This document shows positions 12,211 through 18,339 of a DNA stretch of 64,000 nucleotides, one piece after another (positions within the stretch are counted from its first letter, which is position 1; each line of letters begins with the position of its first letter). The notes beneath the pieces are model-generated. The model was given only the letters and a program-made list of their open reading frames with translations, searched no databases and was not told the DNA's origin. The position numbers and the translations under genes were made by a program. Source of the DNA: Alphaproteobacteria bacterium (GTDB taxonomy: Bacteria; Pseudomonadota; Alphaproteobacteria; Rhizobiales; Beijerinckiaceae); NCBI GenBank assembly GCA_021325385.1, contig JAJPHH010000032.1, positions 1-64,000 on the forward strand. Reading direction: 5' to 3'.

Positions 12211-12690
12211 CTAGCCGCGGCCGCGATAGGGCGCAACGCCCTGATCCGGCGCCCAAACGCCTTTCGGCAATTGGCCGGTCTGCCAGAATACGTCAATTGG
12301 TATGCCGCCGCGCGGGAACCAATAGCCGCCGATGAGCAGCCAGCGCGGCTTCAACAGTGCGGCAATGTCCTTGCCGATTCGGACGGTGCAGTCTTCGTGA
12401 AATGCGCCGTGATTGCGAAAGCTCGCCAGGTAGAGCTTCAGCGACTTCGATTCGACCAGCCAGCGATTGGGAACGAAGTCGATGACGAGATGGGCGAAAT
12501 CCGGCTGGCCGGTGACCGGACAGAGCGAGGTGAATTCCGGCGCGGTGAAGCGCGTCACGTAGTCGGCGTCGGGATGCGGATTGGGGACGCGTTCGAGAAT
12601 CGACGCGGCGGGATGATCCGGGATCATCGACGGGCGGCCGAGATGAGTGAGGCCGCTCGGCGGTTGCGATTTACGCGGCGGTTTTGGCAT
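12211..12690 (-). CDS. queF: NADPH-dependent 7-cyano-7-deazaguanine reductase
   Basis: The 159-aa single-domain (type I, YkvM-like) QueF reduces preQ0 to preQ1 in queuosine tRNA modification. The sequence shows the nucleophilic Cys and proton-donor Asp in [18 protein letters not shown], the substrate motif [22 protein letters not shown], and the C-terminal [15 protein letters not shown]. The ATG at 12690 was chosen because the protein fold starts there; the upstream extension is Arg-rich. No other queuosine gene is nearby. Confidence 0.93.
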
Positions 12691-12888
12691 TGAAGCCCTT
12701 GCAAGAAAGCGCCGCCGGCGGAATTCCGCGGCGCGCCAGAGCCTTAGCTCACGGCGCGCGGCGAGGCTATCTTTTCGCGCGCCGATCACACGAAAGCCTT
12801 ATCCCCACCTTAGCTGCCGGCGGTGCCGGCCTTCCGCTTGCGCGCCGCGCGGCATTAGCCCAAGCCTTGGCTCTGGAGACGCCTGAGA

Positions 12889-15800
12889 ATGACTTTGAAG
12901 ACGGCGAAAACGCCGGTTCCCTCCTTTGCGCTCGCCGCAATCGGCGCGGCGCTGGTCGCCGCCGGCCTATGGGCCTCGCTCGCGATGACGGCCTGGAGCG
13001 GCGCGGCGATCGCCGGCGCGCTCGGCCTCGCGGCTTGGCGCGCCGCCGCGACCGGCTCGCCGGGCTCGCCGATCGAGGTCGCGCTCGACGCCTTCGCTTT
13101 CGGGATTTTCGCCGTCGCGCGCAACAACGCGATCGGCTTTTGGCAATTGCCCGGGCCGTGGAAGGATATTCCGCTCTTCAATCTCACCGGCGCGGACATC
13201 GCCTACGCCGTCTATCTATGCGGCTTCCTCGCCGCTTTGCTGCTTGGCCGGCGCGGCTTGACCTGGATCGAGTCGCTCGCGCTGATCGCGACGCCCTTCC
13301 TGTTCAACCTGCTGATGACGATCGCCGCGGACTGGCACATGCAGGAGCTCGGGGCGCTGTTGACGCCGGGCCTGCCGCTGCCGTTCCAGGCGCAGGTTTT
13401 CATCGGCCGCGCCGCGATTCTCTTCATCGTGGCCGAGGCGATGCTCGCCGCTTTTTCGACGCTGCGCATCGGCCGTCCGGCGCTCGATCCGAAGCTGCAC
13501 GGGCTGTTGATCGTCGTCGCCGGGCTCGCCGCGGCCACGCCGTCGCTCGCCAATTTCGCGCAACTGGCCGGCTTCTCGCCCGTCCTCGCCATCGTCGTCG
13601 GCTCGGCCTTCGCCGCGGTCGCGCAGGCGGGCTTGTGGAGCATCGTCTATGTCTTCACCGGCGTCGCGCTCGATTGGATCGGCGGCAAATCGCCGACCTT
13701 CGTCTCGGTCTATGGCCATTGGCGCAGCGGTTTGGTCAAAGGCGCGATCTATGGCGGGCTGTTCATGTTCGGCCTGCTCGTTGTGGCGGCGGCGCTGCGC
13801 GTCCCGGCTTTCGCCGCCTTCCTGAAGGATAACGCGCTCGTTCTTTCGCCATTCGTCGGCGCGCTCGCCTTTCCGCTCGCCGCGACGATCGTCGGCAGCG
13901 CCGACGGGACGCCGCCCTTTTTCGGTCGGCTCGCCGCCGCCTACCGGACTCCGCGCGCTTACGCTCGGGGCGCGGTCGCGGGATTGGGCGCGGCTCTGGC
14001 GCTGACGTCGAACCTGCGCGACGCCGACGGCTTGAGTCGGTTTCTTGCGCTGTTCGTCGTCGGCGCCCTCGCTTATGCCGGCGTCGATCTTCTGTTCGAT
14101 ATCGGCCTTATCGTTCGTGGCGAACGTCGCGCCCTCCAGACATGGCGGCTTTACGCGCTCGGCGTCGCATTGGGCGGCCTCGTCGCCGGCGCGCTTGGCT
14201 GGTATTTCGACGCGCCGCAGCTCAAAGTCGTCATCGACAAGTTCTGGGCTTACGCCGACGTCAATTACGTCTTGACCGGCCGCGCGCTCAACGACTTCAC
14301 GACCTATCCGATCTTCAACAAATACGGCGCGATCGATCTCGGCCAGATCGTCGGCGGGGTGCGCCTGTTCTATACCGAGTCGCTCGCCGGCGTGATCAAT
14401 TGGTCGATCGCCGCGCCGCTGTTCGGCGTCAACTTCGTCCTCTTGAATAGCTTGTTCGATCGCAGCTTGCGGCCGATCAAGGAATTGGTCAGCGCCGCCG
14501 GCATCGAAGGCCTCGTCGCGCAGACAGTGCGGGTGATGCGCTGGGGCCTATGGATGGCGCCGATCATCAACTCGTTCTTGCGCCAGCAGCCAGAGCCGAG
14601 CTGGTTCAATCAGGACGGGGCCATTCGAACGCTGGTTTCGATGGGTGCCGATATCGGCCTGCCGCCGGCGGATTTCAAAAGCTTCAGCCTGACCGTGTTC
14701 CTTGGCCTGCTCGCCTATGATTGGCTGCGCATCCTGATCTGGTTCGATCATATGGGCTTGCGCGTCGCAACCCTGGTCAACCTTACCTTCATCGGCGGCG
14801 ACCGGGCGGACGAAGCCGCGGCGCGCTATCTCGGCCATGCGGCGCGCACCCGCGTCGTGCCTGACGGCATCCGCCGCTTCGCGACTTGGGCGCCTTTGCT
14901 GATCCCGTTCTACATTCCGCGCGGCGCGGACTGGGACCACGCCTGGACCGGGGCCGAGGCGCTGCGCAATTCCGGCGCGCCGCTCCCGGGACCGGTGAAC
15001 GTCATGCTGGTCGCCTATTGTTGCGCGGGCGCCGCTTTCGCTGCGGCCGCGTTCATCGCCGGCGCCCGCATGCGCGAGAAGAAAGGCGAGCCGGCGCCGG
15101 CTCTGGTCGGCGCGCCGCCGACGCTCGGCGAGACGCCGGAAGAACTGTCGCTGACCAACGGCGCGGTCGGCCTCGACATTCTGCGCGACGGCCGCGGCGC
15201 GACCTTCGTCACGGGCGAAGAACGCGGCGGCTTTCCGATAGACATTACCCGAAGGCCGCTGGATCCGCTCCAGGCGCGCGGCGTGTTCTTCTACATCCGC
15301 GAAGGGGCCGCCGAGCCGTGGTCGATCGGCTATGAGCCGGCGCGGCGAGCGGGCGCCTACCGGTTCGAGGCGACGGCGCGCAACAGCGTCGTGATTGTTA
15401 ATGAGATCGACGGGCTCGAGGCGCGGATGGAGGCGGGCCCGGACGCGCAAGGCGCGGTTCTATCCTGGCGGCTGCGCTTCAGCGACCTGTCTGGTCGGGC
15501 GAGGCGGCTCCGGCTGGCCAGTTTCAGTGAAATCGCCGGCCACGAGACGGGCACCTATATGCGCGATCTCGACTTCGCCGGCATGCATGTCGAGACGTTC
15601 TTCGTTCGCGGTCTCAACGCGATCCTGGCGCGCAATCGACTGCTGCGCTCGAAGCGCGCCGGCCGAAGCGAGATGGCCTTCTTCGCAGCTCGGCCGCTCT
15701 CCGAAGGCGCCAAGCTCGTCGGCTACGAAGATTCGCGGGCCCGCTTTCTTGGCGAAGGCTCGCTCGCCAAGCCGCAAGGACTGGACGAGGCGCGGCCGCG

Positions 15801-18339
15801 GCCGCTCGACGATCAAGGCAAGCTATGGACGTTCGATCCGGCCGCGAGCCTCTCCTTCGACATCGAAATTGCCGCCCACGGCGCGGCGGAAGTCGAGTTC
15901 ATTATCGGACGCGCCGATCATGAAAGAGCCGCCGCCGATCTGATTGCGAGCCGGCTCGACCTGCCGACCATCGGCGAATACGAACTCGCCAGCCGCATCT
16001 ATCACACCCGCGCCGTCGAGCCGGCGCCGCAGCCCGCGTCGCGCTGGCCCTTCGCATTCTCGAGCGACGGAACGGCGCTCAGGATGACGCATCGCACGCC
16101 GCGGCCTTGGGCGCATGTGATGGCCAACGAGCTCGGCGCCGGAATCGTCGTCTCGAATGACGGCGAGGTCTATTCCTTCTTTGGCAACGCGCAACAGAAC
16201 GGCTTGACGCCGTACCGTTTCGACAGCGTGACGATCCCGCAGCCGGGCCAGGTCGTCTATTTGCGCAATCTCGAAACGGACGAGACGGACTCGGTCGGCT
16301 TTGCGCCGTTCCAGCGGGAAGACGCGACCTACGAGGCGGTCTACGAGCCGGGCGTCGCGACGTTCCGGAAGAAGCGTGGCGCGCTGGCTGTGGACTATTC
16401 GGTCTTCGCGCCGCCCGGCTTCCGCGGCGATATGCGTCTTCTGTCGCTGCGCAATGACGGCGACAAGCCGCTGCGCTTGCGAGTCGCGCCTTTCTTCGAC
16501 ATCGCGCTCGCCGAGACGCCGAACGCGAGCAAGGGTTTGCTCGCCGTAGAACGCGTTGGAAGCACGCTGCTCTTTGAAAATCCGCGCAACGATTTCCAGC
16601 GCGGGATTGCTTTCGCTGCGACAAGTCTCAAAGACGCCGCGATCGAGACGGTCCGCAAGCGCTTTTTTGGCGGCGCAGGGCGCAACATCGCCACGCCGGT
16701 CTTCGTCGAGACCGGGGCGTCCGACGCTTCGCAACCTGACGACGGCCGGAGAGTCGCCGCCTTTGGCCGCGACCTCCAGCTCCGGCCCGGCGAAGAGATC
16801 AAAGTCGCGATCGCTTTTGGCCAAGAAACGGACCGCGCCGCCGCCATCGCGGCCGCGGGCAAAGCCGAGGTCGCCGAGGTCGAGGCCGCGCTCGCCGCGA
16901 CGCGCCGATTTTGGCGCGAATGGCTGAATCAGGTCCATGTCGAGACCAACCGCCCCGACTTCGATCGGCTGGTCAATACGTGGCTGCCGTACCAGGCGAT
17001 CGCCTCGCGCCTGTTCGGCCGGGTCGGACCCAACCAGCGCGGCGGCGCCTTCGGCTACCGGGACCAGCTCCAGGACGTCTTGCCGCTCGTCTTCATCGAG
17101 CCGCGCCTGACCCGCGCGCAGATCGTGCTGCATGCCGGCCAGCAATTCCTCGAAGGCGACGTGCTCAAATGGTGGCATCGGGCGCCGGACGGCCGCACCG
17201 GCCTGGGCCAGCGGACTAAGGCGAGCGACCCGCATCTTTGGCTGCCCTATGTCGCGACCCGCTATGTCGAGGCGACGGGCGACCGCACCGTGCTCGACGA
17301 AAAGACGCCCTATCTCGAAGGCCCCGCCGTGCCGGATCACGAGGACACCTCGGTGATCGTCCCGCGCGCTTCGCGCGAAATCGGCTCCGTCTATGAGCAT
17401 TGCCAGCGGGCGATCGATTACACGCTTGGCCATATGGGCGAAAACGGCCTGCCGCTGCTCGGCGCCGGCGATTGGAACGACGGCATTGACGGGCTCGGCC
17501 GCGAAGGCCGCGGCACGAGCGTCTGGATGGGCTTCTTCTTCTATGACGTGCTCAATCGCTTCACGCCGCTCGCGGCCGCGCGCGGCGACAAGGCCTATGC
17601 CCGCAAATGCGACGACGCCCGCACGGCTTTGCGCGCCGCGCTCGAAATCGGCTGGCGGGGGACGCATTACGCGCTCGACTTCGCCGACAATGGCGAAGCG
17701 CTCGCCATGCCGAACGCGATGACGACTGGCTGGCCGGCTTATTCCGGCGCGGTCGATTTCGATCGCGGCCTCGCCGCGATCGAAGGCGGCCTCAAGGGGA
17801 TCGAACGGCCGGATCGCATCCTGCTTACCGAGAAGCCGTTCTTCGAACACTCCTCGCCCTATCCCGGCCGGATCGTCGATTACCCGCCAGGCGTGCGCGA
17901 GAATGGCGGCCAGTATAGCCACGGCGCCTCATGGATCGTCGACGGCTTCGTTCGGCTTTCGGAAGAGGCGCGGGAAGCGGGCGATCGCGACGAGGCGGCG
18001 CGGCTGCTCGGCCGCGCTTTCGAGATTTTCGAGAAAATATCGCCGCTCGGCAAAACCGATCCTGACCGCATCGCGCGCTACGGCCTTGCGCCGAACCAGC
18101 AGCCCGCGGACATTTACGACGGCTACGGCCATGACGGGCGCGGCGGCTGGTCGTGGTACACCGGCTCGGCGGCGCGCATGCTGTCGGCGGCCTATGCGAT
18201 CCTCGGCCTCAAGATGGAGGACGGCGAGATCGTCGTCTCGCCGGGATTGTTCGAGCCGAAAGGCGGCTTGCAGGTCGTGGAATTGCGGGCCGGCGGGCGC
18301 GAATGGCGCCGCGCCAAAGCAGAGGTCGCGGCGTCGTAA
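12889..18339 (+). CDS. Giant membrane-anchored GH94-like glycoside phosphorylase/hydrolase
   Basis: The 1816-aa protein has residues 1 to about 725 rich in membrane segments, then two tandem GH94-type beta-sandwich regions (about 735-1060 and 1065-1340) and an (alpha/alpha)6 barrel (about 1345-1790). The barrel carries GGAFGYRDQLQDVLPL and LLGAGDWNDGIDG near residue 1530, with the general-acid Asp of the GH94 family. This half resembles the C-terminal half of cyclic beta-1,2-glucan synthase (NdvB/ChvB), which trims chain length by phosphorolysis. I see no GT84 glycosyltransferase motif in the N-terminal part, and the protein is about 1000 residues shorter than NdvB. Substrate and direction are unknown. 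GGAG precedes the ATG; it appears to be a single-gene unit. Confidence 0.75.
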   Translation: MTLKTAKTPVPSFALAAIGAALVAAGLWASLAMTAWSGAAIAGALGLAAWRAAATGSPGSPIEVALDAFAFGIFAVARNNAIGFWQLPGPWKDIPLFNLTGADIAYAVYLCGFLAALLLGRRGLTWIESLALIATPFLFNLLMTIAADWHMQELGALLTPGLPLPFQAQVFIGRAAILFIVAEAMLAAFSTLRIGRPALDPKLHGLLIVVAGLAAATPSLANFAQLAGFSPVLAIVVGSAFAAVAQAGLWSIVYVFTGVALDWIGGKSPTFVSVYGHWRSGLVKGAIYGGLFMFGLLVVAAALRVPAFAAFLKDNALVLSPFVGALAFPLAATIVGSADGTPPFFGRLAAAYRTPRAYARGAVAGLGAALALTSNLRDADGLSRFLALFVVGALAYAGVDLLFDIGLIVRGERRALQTWRLYALGVALGGLVAGALGWYFDAPQLKVVIDKFWAYADVNYVLTGRALNDFTTYPIFNKYGAIDLGQIVGGVRLFYTESLAGVINWSIAAPLFGVNFVLLNSLFDRSLRPIKELVSAAGIEGLVAQTVRVMRWGLWMAPIINSFLRQQPEPSWFNQDGAIRTLVSMGADIGLPPADFKSFSLTVFLGLLAYDWLRILIWFDHMGLRVATLVNLTFIGGDRADEAAARYLGHAARTRVVPDGIRRFATWAPLLIPFYIPRGADWDHAWTGAEALRNSGAPLPGPVNVMLVAYCCAGAAFAAAAFIAGARMREKKGEPAPALVGAPPTLGETPEELSLTNGAVGLDILRDGRGATFVTGEERGGFPIDITRRPLDPLQARGVFFYIREGAAEPWSIGYEPARRAGAYRFEATARNSVVIVNEIDGLEARMEAGPDAQGAVLSWRLRFSDLSGRARRLRLASFSEIAGHETGTYMRDLDFAGMHVETFFVRGLNAILARNRLLRSKRAGRSEMAFFAARPLSEGAKLVGYEDSRARFLGEGSLAKPQGLDEARPRPLDDQGKLWTFDPAASLSFDIEIAAHGAAEVEFIIGRADHERAAADLIASRLDLPTIGEYELASRIYHTRAVEPAPQPASRWPFAFSSDGTALRMTHRTPRPWAHVMANELGAGIVVSNDGEVYSFFGNAQQNGLTPYRFDSVTIPQPGQVVYLRNLETDETDSVGFAPFQREDATYEAVYEPGVATFRKKRGALAVDYSVFAPPGFRGDMRLLSLRNDGDKPLRLRVAPFFDIALAETPNASKGLLAVERVGSTLLFENPRNDFQRGIAFAATSLKDAAIETVRKRFFGGAGRNIATPVFVETGASDASQPDDGRRVAAFGRDLQLRPGEEIKVAIAFGQETDRAAAIAAAGKAEVAEVEAALAATRRFWREWLNQVHVETNRPDFDRLVNTWLPYQAIASRLFGRVGPNQRGGAFGYRDQLQDVLPLVFIEPRLTRAQIVLHAGQQFLEGDVLKWWHRAPDGRTGLGQRTKASDPHLWLPYVATRYVEATGDRTVLDEKTPYLEGPAVPDHEDTSVIVPRASREIGSVYEHCQRAIDYTLGHMGENGLPLLGAGDWNDGIDGLGREGRGTSVWMGFFFYDVLNRFTPLAAARGDKAYARKCDDARTALRAALEIGWRGTHYALDFADNGEALAMPNAMTTGWPAYSGAVDFDRGLAAIEGGLKGIERPDRILLTEKPFFEHSSPYPGRIVDYPPGVRENGGQYSHGASWIVDGFVRLSEEAREAGDRDEAARLLGRAFEIFEKISPLGKTDPDRIARYGLAPNQQPADIYDGYGHDGRGGWSWYTGSAARMLSAAYAILGLKMEDGEIVVSPGLFEPKGGLQVVELRAGGREWRRAKAEVAAS

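Follow-up and report, generated by a model that had tools for sequence, protein, structure and literature searches.

A Cgs-related GH94 half joined to an unrelated membrane domain in an 1816 aa bacterial protein and its family

The gene, its family and its neighbourhood

The window analysed, 64,000 nt of a contig from a Beijerinckiaceae genome, contains an open reading frame with an ATG start and no internal stop that encodes a protein of 1816 aa (Table 1). A Pfam scan of this protein gave no match to residues 1-740, whilst both GH94 profiles scored over their cut-offs further along the chain (PF17167 at 212.9 bits, cut-off 27, with E 7.6e-64 in a search of the protein's own genome; PF06165 at 210.2 bits, cut-off 23); judged by these profiles, membership of GH94 is clear. 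An NCBIfam match to a MobF relaxase, at 12.7 bits with a cut-off of 100, was discarded as noise. A sequence-only reading had described about 725 residues of membrane helices, two beta-sandwich regions and a GH94-like barrel with a GDWNDG motif. These were recovered as an all-helical AlphaFold2 domain with 14 clear hydrophobic helices before residue 523, as two separate PF06165 stretches, and as a catalytic domain in which GDWNDG occupies residues 1527-1532. Sequence and profile comparisons, phylogeny and fold searches all back its overall description of an NdvB-like GH94 half attached to an unrelated membrane domain.

Table 1. Features of the gene and of associated genes; positions are those of the window unless a locus is named
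Feature	Residues	Position	Strand	Basis or remark
Whole gene	1816 aa	12889-18339	+	membrane domain, two GH94-type supersandwiches and GH94 barrel
N-terminal membrane domain	13-732	12925-15084	+	AlphaFold2 model; no Pfam, PDB-sequence or Cgs match
Best-conserved membrane-domain block	440-695	14206-14973	+	invariant or near-invariant alignment columns
RVMRW	548-552	14530-14544		[RQ]xxRW; 23 of 25 family rows
First GH94 supersandwich	about 786-1007	15244-15909	+	PF06165 E 9.7e-23; hhalign to Cgs
Second GH94 supersandwich	1071-1311	16099-16821	+	PF06165 E 7e-40
GH94 catalytic (alpha/alpha)6 domain	1341-1769	16909-18195	+	PF17167 E 8.5e-63
RDQLQD	R1391, D1392	17059-17076	+	subsite -1; aligned with LpSOGP R630/D631
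GDWNDG	W1529, D1531	17467-17484	+	general acid D1531; aligned with LpSOGP D760 and Cgs D2528
RENGGQYSH	R1670, E1671, Y1676, H1678	17896-17922	+	substrate/phosphate site; LpSOGP R916, E917, Y922, H924
GWSWYTG	Y1757, T1758, G1759	18145-18165	+	Y1757 subsite +2, T1758/G1759 phosphate loop; LpSOGP Y1004, S1005, S1006
QueF-like gene		12211-12789	-	just upstream
Next gene downstream	326 aa	18561-19541	+	signal-like N-terminus
Paired protein on Planctomycete plasmids	~700 aa	L104:17121-19235, L105:17324-19402, L106:17277-19391		follows the family gene

The same fusion was found at 19 loci in genomes of independent GTDB species, at further loci detected by profile and on three Planctomycete plasmids, the hosts comprising Alphaproteobacteria, Gammaproteobacteria, relatives of Desulfomicrobium and the Planctomycetes; Methylocapsa sp. 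S129 and Roseiarcus fermentans are carriers that can be cultured and are not pathogenic. It is rare, being present in 5 of 385 alphaproteobacterial genomes and in 2 of 120 from the class of the Desulfomicrobium-like carrier. Those shortened copies that were checked are cut by contig ends, and none of the 505 genomes, 72,556 plasmids or phages searched showed the membrane domain apart from GH94. The joining of this membrane domain to GH94 is a real family.

Across ten proteobacterial loci, no neighbour was conserved beyond close relatives, the adjacent genes being unrelated housekeeping or unassigned ones; hence the family gene forms no operon with OPG genes in Proteobacteria. QueF and other neighbours were considered as operon partners, but are common to close Beijerinckiaceae only (the QueF-like gene lies in a neighbourhood common to L003, L004, L006, L007 and L009), and were read as plain synteny. 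The next gene downstream in the window encodes a protein of repetitive, beta-helix-like sequence, which has no Pfam family and was not among the neighbours common to at least three related loci. In L009, the translation of a + frame at 15.6-17.7 kb, downstream of the family gene, resembles a membrane pyrophosphatase, and L004-L007 have open reading frames in the equivalent position that cluster with it.

The GH94 half

When compared with the cyclic-glucan synthase Cgs/NdvB using hhalign, the C-terminal half gave a colinear alignment of 1020 columns at probability 100, corresponding to Cgs residues from about 1522 to 2756 minus the Rossmann-like insert that Cgs carries between its sandwiches (PMC10901819). 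The first supersandwich, where this alignment starts at profile column 1524, is the counterpart of LpSOGP Ndom1 and Cgs GP1, such that the extra N-terminal sandwich characteristic of SOGP (1,2-beta-oligoglucan phosphorylase), which in that enzyme adjoins the catalytic pocket, is present here in the form of two PF06165 stretches. A maximum-likelihood tree was built from 39 GH94 catalytic regions, including 19 family members, 12 Cgs and three SOGP-like proteins. All 19 family members form one clade (100/100) that is sister to the 12 Cgs (96/98), and this grouping stands apart from the other sampled GH94 sequences and the three SOGP-like proteins; as the SOGP branches and some others are long, only the family/Cgs grouping was used from the tree.

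The active site is intact. In LpSOGP, R630, D631, W758, D760 and E917 form subsite -1, Y922 and H924 surround the phosphate, Q621 and Y1004 are the sophorose ligands of subsite +2, and R907 belongs to subsite +1 (PMC5309861); the general acid is D760 in this enzyme and D2528 in the phosphorylase of Cgs (PMC10901819, PMC5309861). Exact counterparts of the subsite -1 and phosphate residues are found in R1391, D1392, W1529, D1531, E1671, Y1676 and H1678. Conservation of D1531, Y1676, H1678, T1758 and G1759 extends throughout the family, Planctomycete orthologs included, with T1758 replaced by Ser in a single locus, L008. On this basis the GH94 half is very probably competent as a phosphorylase.

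As regards its substrate, equivalents of Q621, D631, Y1004 and R916 of the SOGP sophorose-binding set (subsites +1/+2) are present, the R907 region being one that could not be aligned. Q1383 and Y1757, which align with LpSOGP Q621 and Y1004, are kept in the family and in Cgs but are absent from the other GH94 sequences aligned; beta-1,2-oligosaccharides are therefore the favoured substrates, a specificity that we consider likely. The family protein does have R1661 where Cgs has Tyr at the aligned position, as might be expected if the GH94 half acted on a beta-1,3- or beta-1,4-glucan and its link to OPGs were incidental; however, the subsite +2 residues, the kinship with Cgs and the co-occurrence with OPG genes described below all indicate beta-1,2 linkages, making such an activity highly improbable.

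The membrane domain

AlphaFold2 modelled residues 1-735 as a single, almost all-helical membrane domain (mean pLDDT 88.2, pTM 0.86) using 25 aligned homologs, an earlier model from 17 rows having reached a pLDDT of 79.6. There are about 14-18 membrane helices in total, one of which, at residues 706-724, lies beyond the clearly hydrophobic series that ends before residue 523. From one loop to the next along that series, the mean net positive charge of the aligned sequences by and large alternates, the contrast being weak at loops 260-275 and 299-320, and residues 718-745, after the last helix, have a high net charge of +2.6. Because the positive-inside pattern alternates and residues 718-745 are positive, both ends of the membrane domain, together with the GH94 half, in all likelihood lie in the cytoplasm. 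The Planctomycete orthologs (L104, L105 and L106) have an extra N-terminal domain spanning the first ~90-200 residues, then one added hydrophobic helix, which would return the chain to the cytoplasm ahead of helix 1, consistent with the predicted topology. These extensions have no Pfam family, and are possibly glycan-binding; that of L105, read by eye, begins with a signal-peptide-like stretch.

Searches for relatives of this domain returned little. Pfam scanning of the membrane domains of 17 family members yielded only stray matches above E 0.01, a membrane-domain profile found a single chance match (E 0.033) among all PDB sequences, and hhalign of residues 1-745 with six full-length Cgs gave a probability of 0.1. 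Foldseek detected no match in the PDB at E<=0.001 for either model, nor any in BFVD at the same threshold for the first model (pLDDT 79.6), and no known transporter or flippase fold from the PDB was recognised in either. Hence the domain, of about 730 residues, seems to represent a new family and, by Foldseek against the PDB, a new fold, although with the comparison covering the PDB and BFVD it may possibly have relatives of unsolved structure.

The possibility that a GT84 or GT2 domain is hidden in this region was rejected. Profile searches gave neither a Pfam GT nor a Cgs match, in agreement with the sequence-only reading, which had noticed no GT84 motif; no GT2-like DxD/ED signature is conserved; and the structure prediction that the same reading had proposed produced a confident model of residues 1-735 from which the Rossmann-like GT fold (GT-A/GT-B) is absent. 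Profile, motif and fold comparisons agree that the N-terminal region corresponds to no known GT domain. The [RQ]xxRW string at residue 548 recalls the QxxRW of processive GT2 enzymes, but sits in a helix, without other GT motifs or a GT-A fold. An internal repeat, as is seen in many transporters, was also sought by aligning the two halves with hhalign and none was found, the matches reflecting the segments' common overlap.

The best-conserved block comprises a large periplasmic loop, amphipathic helices and short membrane helices, and contains the motifs WxMAPII, WYNQDG, WFDHMGLRVATLVNL and RRFxTWxPLxxPFYIPRG. The conserved membrane-domain positions that were checked are also kept in the Planctomycete orthologs, except for K451, which is Asn in one of them, and R662, which is Lys in all three. 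Among the invariant or near-invariant polar residues located in interfacial loops are D339, R347, D576, D620, R625 and D638. As these look as enzyme-like as they do transporter-like, the N-terminal domain could itself be an enzyme whose substrate is, for example, a lipid carrier or a substituent of a glycan, with the GH94 half acting upon its product; this appears improbable for a domain that has no known transferase fold or motif.

Co-occurrence with OpgG and OpgH

OpgG and OpgH belong to the system for linear, periplasmic beta-1,2-glucan (OPG). OpgG/MdoG was detected in all 23 carrier genomes tested, against a background of 40/289 Alphaproteobacteria and 17/120 genomes in the Desulfomicrobium-like class (~14% each), both family carriers of the latter class being among its 17 OpgG-positive genomes. 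Of 26 carriers, 25 scored above the curated threshold for OpgH; the remaining one, G485, has an OpgG match starting 20 bases from a contig end, so that its OpgH may simply be unassembled. These counts leave out the Planctomycete hosts, and are not independent, since the carriers fall into related clusters. OpgG is moreover widespread in Gammaproteobacteria (PMC10514313), so carriers from this class add little, and the strength of the co-occurrence rests on the alphaproteobacterial and Desulfomicrobium-like samples. Most OpgG-positive genomes do not have the family gene, hence OpgG is clearly not sufficient for its presence.

Within the genome containing the window, OpgG and OpgH are encoded side by side on contig C204, and the 1816 aa protein is the only GH94 found; a third OpgG/OpgD copy is apparently split over two contig ends (G000:C183 and G000:C136). 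In the Desulfomicrobium-like class, an OpgG domain lies inside an 1818 aa open frame (G530:C2:38928-40403), possibly representing an OpgG fusion. The idea that the family protein replaces Cgs to its exclusion was abandoned, about eight of the 23 carriers also holding a Cgs-like gene.

Phosphate in the cytoplasm normally favours phosphorolysis, and the carriers already have OpgH. These observations argue against a reverse direction, in which the GH94 half would use glucose 1-phosphate to build beta-1,2-glucan for export by the membrane domain, constituting a nucleotide-independent synthase. GH94 reactions are reversible and SOGP has served for the in vitro synthesis of beta-1,2-glucan (PMC11842490), but we give such a synthase very little credence.

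A gene pair on Planctomycete plasmids

On three plasmids of Isosphaeraceae-type Planctomycetes, the gene directly after the family gene, at distances of -4, +34 and -4 bp, encodes a ~700 aa protein with a signal-like N-terminus and no Pfam or NCBIfam family. The profile of this protein matches EeSGL1 (PDB 8XUJ) at E 1.5e-4. EeSGL1 is an endo-beta-1,2-glucanase of GH192 in which D149 and E221 have been proposed as catalytic on the basis of mutation (PMC12102758); these align with the invariant D255 and E342 of the paired protein, the chain numbering of 8XUJ apparently being shifted by one. Independently, hhalign places the paired protein on the GH189 domain of Cgs, over the same Glu region, at E 9e-4 with a probability of only 23. 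From such weak profile matches, the paired protein is probably a secreted, distant relative of the SGL clan of beta-1,2-glucanases, and is a candidate for a new GH family. Together with the co-occurrence with OpgG and OpgH, this pair indicates that the family gene accompanies extracytoplasmic beta-1,2-glucan enzymes in two distant settings.

The Planctomycete pair also bears on whether the protein might be a controller of chain length, the membrane domain docking on OpgH or another synthase whilst the growing beta-1,2-glucan is shortened by the GH94 half with no transport involved. Such a role would accord with the presence of OpgH in nearly all carriers and with the position of the family as sister to the GH94 of Cgs, whose GP domain trims glucan likewise at the cytoplasmic face, within one polypeptide (PMC10901819). 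However, the number of membrane helices far exceeds the needs of an anchor, and the Planctomycete version is paired with a secreted glucanase-like protein rather than a synthase. Furthermore, a BcsA-like synthase holds the growing end in its active site. We consider length control of this kind unlikely; a partner that is secreted and glucanase-like, and so large a membrane domain, speak more for uptake.

Proposed function

In broad terms, the protein probably serves to recover or shorten a glucose polymer of the cell envelope. The reading we prefer, at a probability of roughly 45%, is that of a membrane-integrated, inverting GH94 phosphorylase, whose membrane domain admits beta-1,2-gluco-oligosaccharides and whose GH94 half yields glucose 1-phosphate. 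The inner membrane would house the membrane domain, and the phosphorylase half would face the cytoplasm. In Proteobacteria, OPGs made by OpgH and processed by GH186 enzymes of the OpgG/OpgD type could provide the outside source of glucan, and in Planctomycetes the glucan would be cut outside by the secreted SGL-like enzyme. The membrane domain would then let beta-1,2-glucan chains or fragments through, or present them, and phosphate would cleave the non-reducing end to give glucose 1-phosphate, without ATP. The architecture, the intact active site, the kinship with the GH94 of Cgs and the genomic link to OPG genes are established here; the beta-1,2 specificity, the cytoplasmic side and the direction of salvage are what we infer from them. 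Least certain is the role of the membrane domain as a sugar importer, which we rate a little below even odds. The sequence-only reading had offered two functional ideas, a phosphorylase working with a separate synthase and one coupled to a transporter. The Planctomycete pair and the presence of OpgG/OpgH in the carriers now favour both as possible roles, although Foldseek matched the membrane domain to no solved transporter.

Knowledge of OPGs concerns chiefly their synthesis and decoration, and we know of no established cytoplasmic route for their salvage; the family gene, which accompanies OpgG/OpgH across three proteobacterial lineages, is a tangible candidate for a role in turning OPGs over or controlling their length. 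Were the membrane domain to transport, this would be the first case known to us of a glycan importer combined with its own phosphorylase. A bolder and unlikely extension is vectorial phosphorolysis, whereby a single polypeptide would draw a periplasmic beta-glucan chain through a novel type of membrane channel, each glucose being cleaved by phosphate on entry. If true, uptake would itself be the phosphorylation step and would need neither ATP nor PEP, adding a third principle to the group translocation of the PTS and the combination of permease plus kinase.

Comparison with known systems

A literature search found no account of the architecture combining this membrane domain with GH94, or of its function. 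GH94 phosphorylase genes are listed on the Isosphaeraceae plasmids pPALBO1 and pPL62-1 (PMC5352709), and are presumably the same genes as two of the plasmid orthologs described here. The available part of that source counts them as GH94 only, giving no membrane domain, paired gene or function, and this listing being all that the search brought up, the family does not seem to have been characterised already.

OpgG/OpgD (GH186) and OpgH (GT2) are genomic companions of the family, but are different proteins with no sequence relation seen, and in the loci examined the family gene lies outside the OpgG/OpgH operon. SOGP, represented by LpSOGP (5H3Z), is similar in having two sandwiches and a barrel, with catalytic and subsite +2 residues that align; it lacks the membrane domain, is very distant in sequence (E 0.031) and falls on a separate branch of the tree. 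One carrier from the same family as the window genome (L085; G775:C6:636500-644500) additionally encodes a soluble, SOGP-like GH94 protein of 1092 aa. Cgs also has a GT84 synthase, a GH189 cyclase and the Rossmann-like insert, all three of which are missing from the family protein; PF10091, the cyclase, is absent both from the 1816 aa protein and from the whole of its own genome. As two of the three defining catalytic domains, GT84 and the cyclase, were tested for and are absent, the protein is not a Cgs/NdvB. The transmembrane domain of Cgs has six helices (PMC10901819), whereas that of the family is much larger and unrelated. What Cgs/NdvB and the family have in common is a large inner-membrane protein bearing tandem supersandwiches and a GH94 barrel with the same active site.
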